The position numbers and the translations under genes are program-made. Below the pieces are notes generated by a model. That model was given only the letters and a program-made list of their open reading frames with translations, was not told the origin of the DNA and searched no databases. 64,000 bases of DNA from Chloroflexi bacterium HGW-Chloroflexi-2 (GTDB lineage Bacteria; Chloroflexota; Anaerolineae; Anaerolineales; Anaerolineaceae), in assembly GCA_002840735.1 (NCBI GenBank), contig PHBY01000001.1, forward strand, positions 62,001 to 126,000, given 5' to 3'. Below are positions 44,029 through 47,386 of the stretch, piece by piece. Positions within the stretch are counted from its first letter, which is position 1. Each line of letters begins with the position of its first letter.

Positions 44029-44676
44029 ATGCTGGGTCTATCTATTTCTAAACTAATTATTCGAATAATTACATTGGTTATCGCTTTCACCGTGCATGAA
44101 TTTTCGCATGCCTGGACTGCGAATTCATTTGGGGACCAAACGCCAAAGGATCATGGAAGGTTGACATTAAATCCATTGGTTCATCTTGATCCCTTTGGTA
44201 GTTTGTTATTGCTAGTCGCAGGATTTGGTTGGGCAAAACCTGTCCCTGTAAATCCATACGTCCTTAACCGGCGCTCTCCCAGTGCTTTTATGTGGGTTTC
44301 ATTAGCAGGACCATTATCCAATCTTTTAATGGCTGTTTTAGCTGCAATTCCCCTACGATTCGGATTGATTCAATATCAGATTCCAACATCAAAATTTATA
44401 CCCACCGCTTATGAATTTGCGATTGAATTCATTATCATCAACTTAGCATTAATGCTCTTCAACTTAATTCCATTAGCCCCTTTGGATGGAGAAAAGGTTC
44501 TGGACTTTTTTCTTCCCCAGAACCTACAACAAGGATGGAATAAAATAAAACAATTTGGACCAATTATTCTCCTTGCTTTAATTTTTGTATTACCAATGAT
44601 CGGAATTGATTTAATCAGCATGGTTTTAACACCTGCTTTATCAGGATTATTAAGAGTTCTCATTGGAGGGTACTGA
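44029..44676 (+). CDS. site-2 protease family membrane metalloprotease (M50)
   Basis: A 215-residue intramembrane protease with five or six spans. The zinc motif is HEFSHAW (His23, Glu24, His27); the third ligand is in LIPLAPLDGEK. It lacks PDZ and CBS domains and belongs to the short RseP/SpoIVFB-like group often annotated as rhomboid-like S2P. The substrate is unknown. Its stop overlaps the next gene by one base. Confidence 0.88.
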   Translation: MLGLSISKLIIRIITLVIAFTVHEFSHAWTANSFGDQTPKDHGRLTLNPLVHLDPFGSLLLLVAGFGWAKPVPVNPYVLNRRSPSAFMWVSLAGPLSNLLMAVLAAIPLRFGLIQYQIPTSKFIPTAYEFAIEFIIINLALMLFNLIPLAPLDGEKVLDFFLPQNLQQGWNKIKQFGPIILLALIFVLPMIGIDLISMVLTPALSGLLRVLIGGY

Positions 44677-45659
44677 TGACAATTAAATTATCAGTTATCG
44701 GTTGCGGAAAAATTGGCACCTCAATAGGACTGGCATTAAAAAATCACACTCAGGAAATTCATCGTACTTGTTTCGATCGGATTCCTGCCAATTCAAAACA
44801 AGCCCATGATATGCAGGCTTTTGATCAAATTGCCTTGAGGGTTAATGAATGTGTGGAAAATGCTGATGTTGTTATTCTTGCCATCCCGGTTGATGAATTA
44901 CTAATAACAATTGATACGATATCTCCTTACTTAAAATCTGGATCCATTCTTATTGATACGTCCCCAATTAAAATTAGTATAAAAGAATATATTGAGGACA
45001 AGTTACCAGAAGATCGCTATTTTTTGTCCATTTTCCCAACAATCAATCCTGCTTATATTCATGAAGCTGAAAACTCACCTGAATTTGCTCACGAAGACTT
45101 GTTTTGTAATGCTCTAATTGTTTTAACAGGATCAGAGCGTACGAGCAACGAAGCTTTTAAATTAGGAACAGATTTATCAAAATTCTTTGGTGCCCAGGTT
45201 TTGTTCGCAGATCCATATGAAGTGGATGGATTACTGGCAGCCACTGAAACATTACCAAAACTGATTTCCGCTGCATACATTCATGCCGTTATGGATCAAC
45301 CTGGCTGGAAAGAAGGCAGGAAATTAACAAATAATCCATTTAATTCACTTACACAATTGATTACCCATCTGGATGAACGCGAAGACTATGGAAAATCAGC
45401 TGAACTGAATCGAGAAAACACGATAAGAACGATCGACAATATGATTTATTCTTTAAAGGCCATTCGTGATTTGCTACAGGAAGAAAATTCTTCTGAAATT
45501 CAAAAATGGTACCAGAAATCCCTGGATAACCACAATAAATGGTCCGAGGAGAGAAAATTGGCAACCTGGAATAAAATTACTGGTAAAGAAGATATACCAT
45601 CGAGTGCTGACATTTTTAAGAATTTATTAGGCTTTGGAAAAAAAAGAAAAGATAAATAG
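44676..45659 (+). CDS. prephenate dehydrogenase-like protein
   Basis: A 327-residue TyrA-superfamily dehydrogenase. The N-terminal NAD fold is GCGKIGTSIGLAL, ILAIPVDELL follows and FPTINPAYIHEAE replaces the usual HPMFGP-type catalytic motif, with the helical C-terminal domain LLAATETLPKLISAAY. The altered histidine motif makes true prephenate dehydrogenase activity uncertain. No chorismate mutase or ACT domain is present. It follows the protease gene with overlap. Confidence 0.72.
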   Translation: MTIKLSVIGCGKIGTSIGLALKNHTQEIHRTCFDRIPANSKQAHDMQAFDQIALRVNECVENADVVILAIPVDELLITIDTISPYLKSGSILIDTSPIKISIKEYIEDKLPEDRYFLSIFPTINPAYIHEAENSPEFAHEDLFCNALIVLTGSERTSNEAFKLGTDLSKFFGAQVLFADPYEVDGLLAATETLPKLISAAYIHAVMDQPGWKEGRKLTNNPFNSLTQLITHLDEREDYGKSAELNRENTIRTIDNMIYSLKAIRDLLQEENSSEIQKWYQKSLDNHNKWSEERKLATWNKITGKEDIPSSADIFKNLLGFGKKRKDK

Positions 45660-45664
45660 GATTT

Positions 45665-47098
45665 GTGAACAAACCCGTCTATTGTTATATGATTCTTTGT
45701 GAAAACCAGGCTTTTTATACTGGCTGGACGAAAAATATTTCTTCGAGGTTTAAACAACATCAAAGCGGGAATGGATCACGTTATACAAAACAAAACAAAC
45801 CAGTTAAAGTGATTTATTGGAAAACCTGCAAAGATAAATCAACTGCAATGAAGAAAGAAATCGAAATCAAGAAATTGAACAAAAAACAAAAAGAGAAATT
45901 GATTTTTGGGTGGAGAAAGAGCATGAATTTACCTGTAGCTTTTGATCAGTTTGAATATCTTTCCATTGCGCCTGGACGTGTAAACATGTTAGGAGAACAC
46001 ATCGACTATAACGGAGGTTCGGTTCTCCCTGCCGCTATTGATCGTTATGTTTATTTGGGTGCTAACAAAAGCAATGATCAGATTATTAAAATCACTGCAT
46101 TGGATCTGGATCAGACGATTTCATTTCGAATCGATCAGATTGAAAAGAAAATAGACATACAGGGCAATCCTTTACCGGAGTGGTCTTTATACCCAGCTGG
46201 TGTTTTTTGGGCAGCTGCAAAACAAAATTTGAGAATTTCAGGTTTTGAAGGAATAATTACATCCACCATTCCCATGGGTACAGGATTGAGTTCATCAGCT
46301 GCTGTTGAAGTCGCATTTGCAGCGCTGATGCGCGAATTTTGCTCGTGGGATATCGATAACCTGGAGTTAGCAAAAATCTGTCAAATGGCTGAAAATCAAT
46401 ATATCGGCGTAAATTGTGGTCTGATGGATCAATTCGCATCGGCAAATGGTGTGCAAAACTCCCTTCTTTTTTTTAATACAACTACGCTGGACTGGTTCCC
46501 GGTCGAACTTCCAGATAATGTCACCATTGTAATTACGAATTCAAAAATTTCACGTGCATTATCCACATCAGCATACAACGAACGCAGGCGGTCTTGCGAA
46601 AAAGCATTAATCGACCTTCAGAAAACATATCCTGGACGTTCGAATTTATGTCAAATTTCTATCTCAGAATTTGAAGAGATAGAAAATGAATTAGAGGAAA
46701 CGCTGCATAAACGTGCAAAACATGTGGTTAACGAGTGCAATCGTGTTAACCAGGCAATCAATTTTCTAAAAGATAATATGCTTGTTGAGTTTGGTGAACT
46801 GATGAAAGCCAGTCATAACTCATTACGCGATTTATATGAAGTAAGTACTCCGGAATTGGATTTTATGGTTTCAATAGCGAATAATATCGATGGATGTTAT
46901 GGTTCACGATTAACGGGAGCGGGATTTGGTGGCTGTATCGTCTCTCTCGTTAAAACTGAGTCAGTAAATAAGTATGTTAAAGAATTAGAATCCACATATC
47001 TCAAAAAAACTGGGAAAGAAATAGAAACTTATGTCTGTAAAGCCAGTGAAGGTGTTACAGTTCAATGGCATGAATTGACTGCTTCATATGTGGATTAA
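45665..47098 (+). CDS. galK: fusion of GIY-YIG endonuclease domain and galactokinase
   Basis: A 477-residue frame joining two complete proteins. Residues 1-80 are a UPF0213/YhbQ-type GIY-YIG domain with YCYMILCENQAFYTGWT, SSRFKQHQSGNGSRYT and KKEIEIKKL, the catalytic Tyr, Arg and Glu all present. Residues ~87-477 are a full galactokinase: APGRVNMLGEHIDYNGG, the ATP loop PMGTGLSSSAA, and LTGAGFGGC. Galactose phosphorylation to galactose-1-phosphate is expected. An internal ATG at 45923 preceded by GGAGAAAGAGC could also start galactokinase alone. The linker is only about six residues. Confidence 0.85.
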   Translation: MNKPVYCYMILCENQAFYTGWTKNISSRFKQHQSGNGSRYTKQNKPVKVIYWKTCKDKSTAMKKEIEIKKLNKKQKEKLIFGWRKSMNLPVAFDQFEYLSIAPGRVNMLGEHIDYNGGSVLPAAIDRYVYLGANKSNDQIIKITALDLDQTISFRIDQIEKKIDIQGNPLPEWSLYPAGVFWAAAKQNLRISGFEGIITSTIPMGTGLSSSAAVEVAFAALMREFCSWDIDNLELAKICQMAENQYIGVNCGLMDQFASANGVQNSLLFFNTTTLDWFPVELPDNVTIVITNSKISRALSTSAYNERRRSCEKALIDLQKTYPGRSNLCQISISEFEEIENELEETLHKRAKHVVNECNRVNQAINFLKDNMLVEFGELMKASHNSLRDLYEVSTPELDFMVSIANNIDGCYGSRLTGAGFGGCIVSLVKTESVNKYVKELESTYLKKTGKEIETYVCKASEGVTVQWHELTASYVD

Positions 47099-47191: not shown

Positions 47192-47386
47192 ATGAGAGTC
47201 GTCGTTGATCCGGATTTATGTATGGGGTGTGGAGTTTGTGAGAGTATTGCTCCGGATATTTTCGAATTGGGAGATGAACTTCATGCAAAAGTTATCCTGG
47301 ACCCAATTCAAGAAAAATATAGATACGTTGTTGAAGAAGCAATAGCTGAATGTCCAGAAGTTGCTATTCAGATAACCGAAGAATAA
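47192..47386 (+). CDS. single-cluster ferredoxin
   Basis: A 64-residue [4Fe-4S] or [3Fe-4S]-type ferredoxin with CMGCGVC (Cys10, 13, 16) and a fourth cysteine in AECPEVAI (Cys54). All four cysteines are present, favouring a 4Fe cluster. GGAGGAAAACC precedes the ATG, and TATAAT lies at 47156-47161. It is a single-gene unit with its own terminator. The partner enzyme is unknown. Confidence 0.92.
   Translation: MRVVVDPDLCMGCGVCESIAPDIFELGDELHAKVILDPIQEKYRYVVEEAIAECPEVAIQITEE

Follow-up and report, generated by a model that had tools for sequence, protein, structure and literature searches.

Recurrence of a GIY-YIG-galactokinase gene fusion across genera of the Anaerolineaceae

A single gene in Chloroflexi bacterium HGW-Chloroflexi-2 (Anaerolineaceae) encodes a GIY-YIG domain of the UPF0213/Slx1-like kind followed, in the same reading frame, by a galactokinase. 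The gene (45665..47098 on the + strand; GTG start, TAA stop included, 477 aa) lies in a stretch of 64,000 nucleotides of contig PHBY01000001.1, hereafter the window, and all coordinates are those of the window. Fused genes of the same kind occur in six genera of the family, at a junction where many relatives carry the two genes as separate neighbours. We consider the gene to be most likely a true and stable fusion of overlapping operon neighbours that would yield one two-domain protein, with each half doing its own work.

The fused reading frame and its junction

The GIY-YIG domain occupies residues 1-80 (45665..45904, +), and the Pfam family PF01541 was matched at residues 6-77 (E 6.8e-18; 65.2 bits vs. 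a cut-off of 22.6). Searches of the PDB with this half returned only two matches at E 0.01 or better, both of them UPF0213 proteins: BH0048 (1zg2, E 8.4e-14) and EF2693 (1ywl, E 1.7e-13). No NCBIfam model scored above its cut-off against the GIY part alone. The galactokinase core comprises residues 103-477 (45971..47095, +), as judged by TIGR00131, the motif residues and the nearest PDB chains, which are galactokinases. TIGR00131, the galactokinase equivalog model, gave 348.9 bits for the fused protein (cut-off 226.65), and the Pfam domains GalKase_gal_bdg, GHMP_N and GHMP_C all fall inside residues 97-433. Narrower galK models stayed below their cut-offs (NF003705, 365.5 vs. 385 bits; NF003472, 341.4 vs. 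499 bits), as did two others (NF003006, 334 vs. 443 bits; NF001816, 215.9 vs. 509 bits). Within the window's own genome (G000) the GIY and galK searches found a single match for each half; beyond the fused gene there is only a remote GHMP-like match (E 0.0016). A structure prediction from a two-row alignment gave a mean pLDDT of 34.2 and a pTM of 0.20, and promoter-like sites were fewer than in shuffled sequence (6 vs. a mean of 12.9).

The frame is open from the GTG to the TAA and both families are recovered by profile, which bears out a preliminary description of the gene as two intact proteins joined in frame without a stop. The same description gave the linker as about six residues. That length applies only if the galactokinase starts at Met87; the conserved galactokinase core begins at Pro103, leaving about 22 residues (81-102; 45905..45970, +) as the variable stretch that separates the conserved cores in the alignment.

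Within the genus of the window, the frame is unbroken in all seven genomes that could be evaluated, our own included; the other six proteins are 88, 71, 57, 56, 56 and 52% identical to that of the window. The contig of an eighth genome (G006) starts inside galK, so its junction is not evaluable. An assembly or sequencing error that conceals a stop or frameshift, which had been considered for positions 45905-45923, is refuted by the same open junction in these six congeners; fused frames occur in five other genera as well, and the probability that we would still assign to such an error is negligible. The search of related genomes for the same fusion, proposed with the preliminary description, thus returned it in six congeners and five further genera. 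The converse expectation, that all relatives would carry separate genes, fails for 23 of the 95 galK loci of the family.

The variable stretch contains an in-frame ATG (Met87; 45923..45925, +), either a relic or an active galactokinase start, and a GGAG (45912..45915, +) that could serve as an internal Shine-Dalgarno site 7 nt before it. The gene had been suggested on this basis to give two products, the long protein and a galactokinase alone from 45923. Such a dual output is compatible with a fusion, and the ATG and the GGAG are indeed present, but the signal is not conserved among fused relatives and we regard two products as possible rather than expected. A junction ATG is found in six of the seven congeners (G004 has none there); in three of them it is preceded at 7-9 nt by GGAG or GGAGG: the window genome and G001 (GGAG, 7 nt in both) and G003 (GGAGG, 9 nt). 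In G002 and G007, GGAG lies 12 and 14 nt before the ATG, and G005 has none. Outside the genus, none of the 16 fused loci combines an ATG just ahead of the galactokinase with a site at 7-9 nt, which leaves the signal in 3 of all 23 fused loci. At G163, AGGA precedes an ATG by 4 nt; G131 and G116 offer a GTG, with AGGAGG lying further upstream; and the scanned junctions of G024 and G139 contain neither ATG nor GTG nor TTG. The internal start signal is not a conserved feature of the fused lineages; judging from the sequence, a galactokinase-only product is possible in the window species and its nearest relatives.

Recurrence of the fusion within a conserved gene block

The fused gene is preceded by two genes on the same strand. 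An M50-type membrane peptidase gene (44029..44676, +; PF02163), also a neighbour in relatives, is the first of a conserved block, and a prephenate-dehydrogenase-like (PDH-like) gene (44676..45659, +; PF02153) lies directly upstream of the fused gene. The PDH-like protein reaches 64.3 bits (vs. 26.5) with PF02153, and every listed NCBIfam prephenate dehydrogenase model scores well under its cut-off; the protein may act on another substrate. Downstream of the fused gene, a 64-residue ORF (47192-47386) carries a CxxCxxC-type motif, which we take to be an iron-sulfur motif.

The M50-(PDH-like)-GIY-galK block is widespread among Anaerolineaceae genomes. In 147 genomes of the family, galK was detected in 94 (threshold E 1e-40) and the GIY gene in 118 (threshold E 1e-10). 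All 95 galK loci of the family were fetched: 23 are fused to the GIY gene, 34 are adjacent to it, 34 lie apart and 4 are cut by contig ends, counts that leave out L093 (on the same contig as L002) and loci from outside the family. The two halves are thus unfused in many relatives, consistent with the earlier view that they are normally separate. Fused copies make up all seven evaluable galK loci in genus g1, 10 of 12 in g15, 3 of 15 in g8, 1 of 4 in g16 and the only locus in each of g18 and g55; g16, g18 and g55 are represented by a single fused genome each, and many genomes of the family are drafts.

On a galK tree, the fused state takes eight changes (8-8 over the bootstrap trees), of which at least six are forced by well-supported branches; restricting the count to fused and adjacent rows gives seven changes. 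The tree covers 79 of 100 galK rows, with more distant galK loci and non-family rows left out, and fragments of fewer than 250 residues had been excluded from the 100 beforehand. Such counts do not tell gain from loss (fusion from fission), and some of the eight changes may be re-splits. The same pair of neighbours has probably been joined several separate times in the family.

The adjacent pairs suggest how this could happen. In 28 of the 34, the galK frame is open across the GIY stop, which lies in another frame; the remaining six share one frame with 1-2 stops between the genes, and 22 of the 34 pairs overlap by their estimated starts. By their frames, these states appear to lie a small step from fusion. 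In this family galK is often found immediately after a small Slx1-like/UPF0213 GIY-YIG gene, with the two frames mostly overlapping or one in-frame stop apart. In the route that we envisage, the frames would be joined by losing the stop or through a small indel where they overlap, probably on several occasions.

Either half also occurs without the other. Among 24 fetched loci with a GIY gene but no galK alongside, the M50 and/or PDH-like gene lies directly upstream in 23, the exception being a divergent GIY gene at a contig end (G142). Conversely, the PDH-like gene is followed immediately by galK in five genomes (G013 and G152-G155; loci L024, L044, L046, L069 and L070); their blocks lack a GIY gene, and a genome-wide search at E 1e-10 detected none. 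The g15 genomes that lack galK retain the GIY gene behind the M50 gene. On a tree of M50 and GIY sequences they are interspersed with fused genomes and three changes are needed, but this nesting is weakly supported because well-supported branches force only one change. In one g15 genome (G115; L068, L122) the GIY gene follows M50 without galK, and a galK from a different clade is found at another site; the linked copy may have been lost and a second one acquired.

The constant order of these genes bears on the origin of the GIY-YIG domain. Homing endonucleases are known to have GIY-YIG domains (PMC1564403), and a selfish gene of this type could have inserted itself into galK. We consider this very improbable, since in 23 of 24 fetched loci without an adjoining galK the GIY gene is still found after M50 or PDH-like genes; the domain is, moreover, of the UPF0213/Slx1 kind. 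Nor was the varying placement of a mobile element seen, the GIY gene following M50/PDH-like genes whether galK is there or not.

The other junctions of the block serve as a control. Fusions were found at 0 of 43 M50-PDH, 0 of 39 PDH-GIY and 0 of 22 M50-GIY junctions, and at 23 of 57 GIY-GalK junctions (20 loci fetched after these counts are not part of them). If fusions arose in proportion to junction counts, six events would all fall at GIY-GalK with a probability of ~0.002, a rough figure, since the extent of overlap, and what the ends can tolerate, varies from junction to junction. Overlaps amount to at most 4 nt at M50-PDH, occur in 5 of 39 cases at PDH-GIY and reach up to 35 nt at GIY-GalK. 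The neighbouring junctions are an imperfect control, M50 being a membrane protein and overlap being smaller there.

That no fusion was seen at M50-PDH, where the genes lie just as close, is also compatible with selection in favor of a GIY-GalK linkage, i.e., a partnership in which the GIY-YIG domain and the galactokinase act together. The kinase domain might, for example, serve as a sugar/ATP sensor by which the nucleic-acid-acting domain is controlled or positioned. At least six forced changes at GIY-GalK vs. no fusion at the three other tight junctions of the block would suit such a partnership, as would the retention of the fusion throughout the genus of the window, down to 52% identity. 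Nonetheless, we judge it unlikely: each half occurs without the other and 34 loci keep the pair unfused. Independent work by the two domains remains our preferred reading. The family offers a natural repeat experiment, in which the same neighbours are found unfused, overlapping, one stop apart and fused, with controls inside the block. It allows one to ask whether repeated fusion indicates joint function (the 'Rosetta stone' assumption) or mere tolerance of a fused frame.

Residue conservation, selection and galactose metabolism

Eight residues of the GIY half (Y8, Y18, G20, R28, H32, Y40, E65 and K69) do not vary in any of the 23 fused or the 34 adjacent copies. They include Y8, Y18, R28 and E65, presumably the active-site Tyr, Arg and Glu residues of GIY-YIG domains; the GIY-YIG residues had earlier been described as apparently intact in the window. 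In the galactokinase half, P103, R105-N107, G110-H112, D114, G207-A213, D255, G418 and G420-G423 are identical in all 23 fused copies; we assume that these belong to the galactose-binding and GHMP motifs. In 7 of the 23, A replaces G104, and 15 of 23 fused copies retain G410, compared with 33 of 34 adjacent ones.

Other positions are freer in fused copies. GIY positions 27, 53 and 64 are invariant in the 34 adjacent copies and vary in fused ones, the window having S27, K53 and K64 vs. R, E and R, respectively. Galactokinase positions 104 and 307 are invariant in adjacent copies and vary in fused lineages other than that of the window (307 is L in 6 of 23). In view of this variation, some relaxation or change following fusion is possible. 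Purifying selection acts on both halves: comparison of the window genome with G001 gave dN/dS values of 0.12 (GIY) and 0.14 (GalK), similar to those of the neighbors (0.13 for the PDH-like gene and 0.07 for M50). Of 10 fused pairs, 7 yielded a GIY dN/dS, from 0.05 to 0.26, and 3 were saturated.

The main product in the window would be a single 477-residue protein with two independently folded domains and a short variable stretch between them. The GIY-YIG domain is predicted to cleave nucleic acid and the galactokinase domain to phosphorylate a sugar, presumably galactose; the cell would thus hold both activities on one polypeptide, probably with no joint function.

GalT (PF01087) was detected in 35 of the 147 family genomes and not in the other 112, many of which have galK. 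The window genome has no GalT by TIGR00209 or PF01087. By class, GalT was detected in 5 of the 23 genomes with a fused gene and in 12 of the 34 with adjacent genes, although drafts may hide some. Galactokinase without GalT raises the question of the fate of galactose-1-phosphate, or of another role of the kinase. One genome (G146) has two galK genes (L100 and L081), one behind a GIY gene and a more distant one directly beside GalT.

That 18 of the 23 fused genomes have no detected GalT puts ordinary Leloir use in question, a point in favor of a partnership between the two domains. But GalT is also undetected in 22 of the 34 genomes with adjacent, unfused genes, so fusion and the lack of GalT are not linked, and the intact galactokinase motifs suit ordinary use as a kinase. 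A bolder proposal, to which we give little credence, is that the repeated fusion reflects selection and that the galactokinase domain is a sugar/ATP-sensing partner of an Slx1-like nuclease. If it were true, the protein would be a nuclease that responds to metabolites, or a kinase anchored to nucleic acid, and most of the genomes concerned have no detected GalT. We favor a fusion in which nuclease and kinase work separately.

Range of the fusion and comparison with known systems

Samples of 400 genomes from the order and 400 from the phylum, both including the family, were searched at E 1e-60 or better with at most four candidates scored per genome and the weakest matches dropped from the lists, settings under which a divergent fusion could be missed; among the matches listed, all full-length ones belong to this family. 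In a genome of the same order and another family, a GIY-YIG match lies within an open frame of 582 codons (G042:C51:4117-4374). A literature search found no paper with both GIY-YIG and galactokinase, none pairing Anaerolineae with galactokinase and none pairing YhbQ with GIY-YIG, and PMC4921024 does not mention galactokinase. As far as these searches show, the fusion is a new pairing of known domain families.

The galactokinase half resembles known GalK proteins (TIGR00131 and the solved galactokinases) in being full-length, scoring above the curated cut-off and having intact motifs. Unlike the usual GalK, it carries an N-terminal GIY-YIG domain and is encoded in a genome where no GalT was found.

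Enzymes of the AdhE/BdhE type are ALDH-ADH fusions described as a case of convergent gene fusion in PMC12454647, where a section heading names neighboring genes as the basis. Here, too, one type of gene pair appears to have been fused more than once. AdhE and BdhE catalyze a two-step reaction; we know of no comparable link between GIY-YIG and GalK.

By sequence, the GIY half is the same minimal domain as the stand-alone UPF0213/prokaryotic Slx1-like proteins 1zg2 (BH0048) and 1ywl (EF2693), both named as bacterial Slx1-family members in PMC1564403. The same text describes prokaryotic Slx1-family proteins as typically free of auxiliary domains, and a C-terminal Asn as a trait of the UvrC lineage that is absent from the prokaryotic Slx1-like group. 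The fused protein departs from the first of these descriptions, as a galactokinase continues in frame. A parallel in that account is the fusion of a COG4123 methyltransferase with an Slx1-like GIY-YIG domain in Lactobacillales, which is ascribed to a conserved operon, and the account warns that some GIY-YIG fusions may be functionally meaningless (PMC1564403). As far as that account goes, both cases join an Slx1-like GIY-YIG domain to the product of a gene that neighbors the stand-alone gene in other genomes; the COG4123 fusions place a methyltransferase N-terminal to the GIY-YIG domain, and the present one a sugar kinase C-terminal to it.
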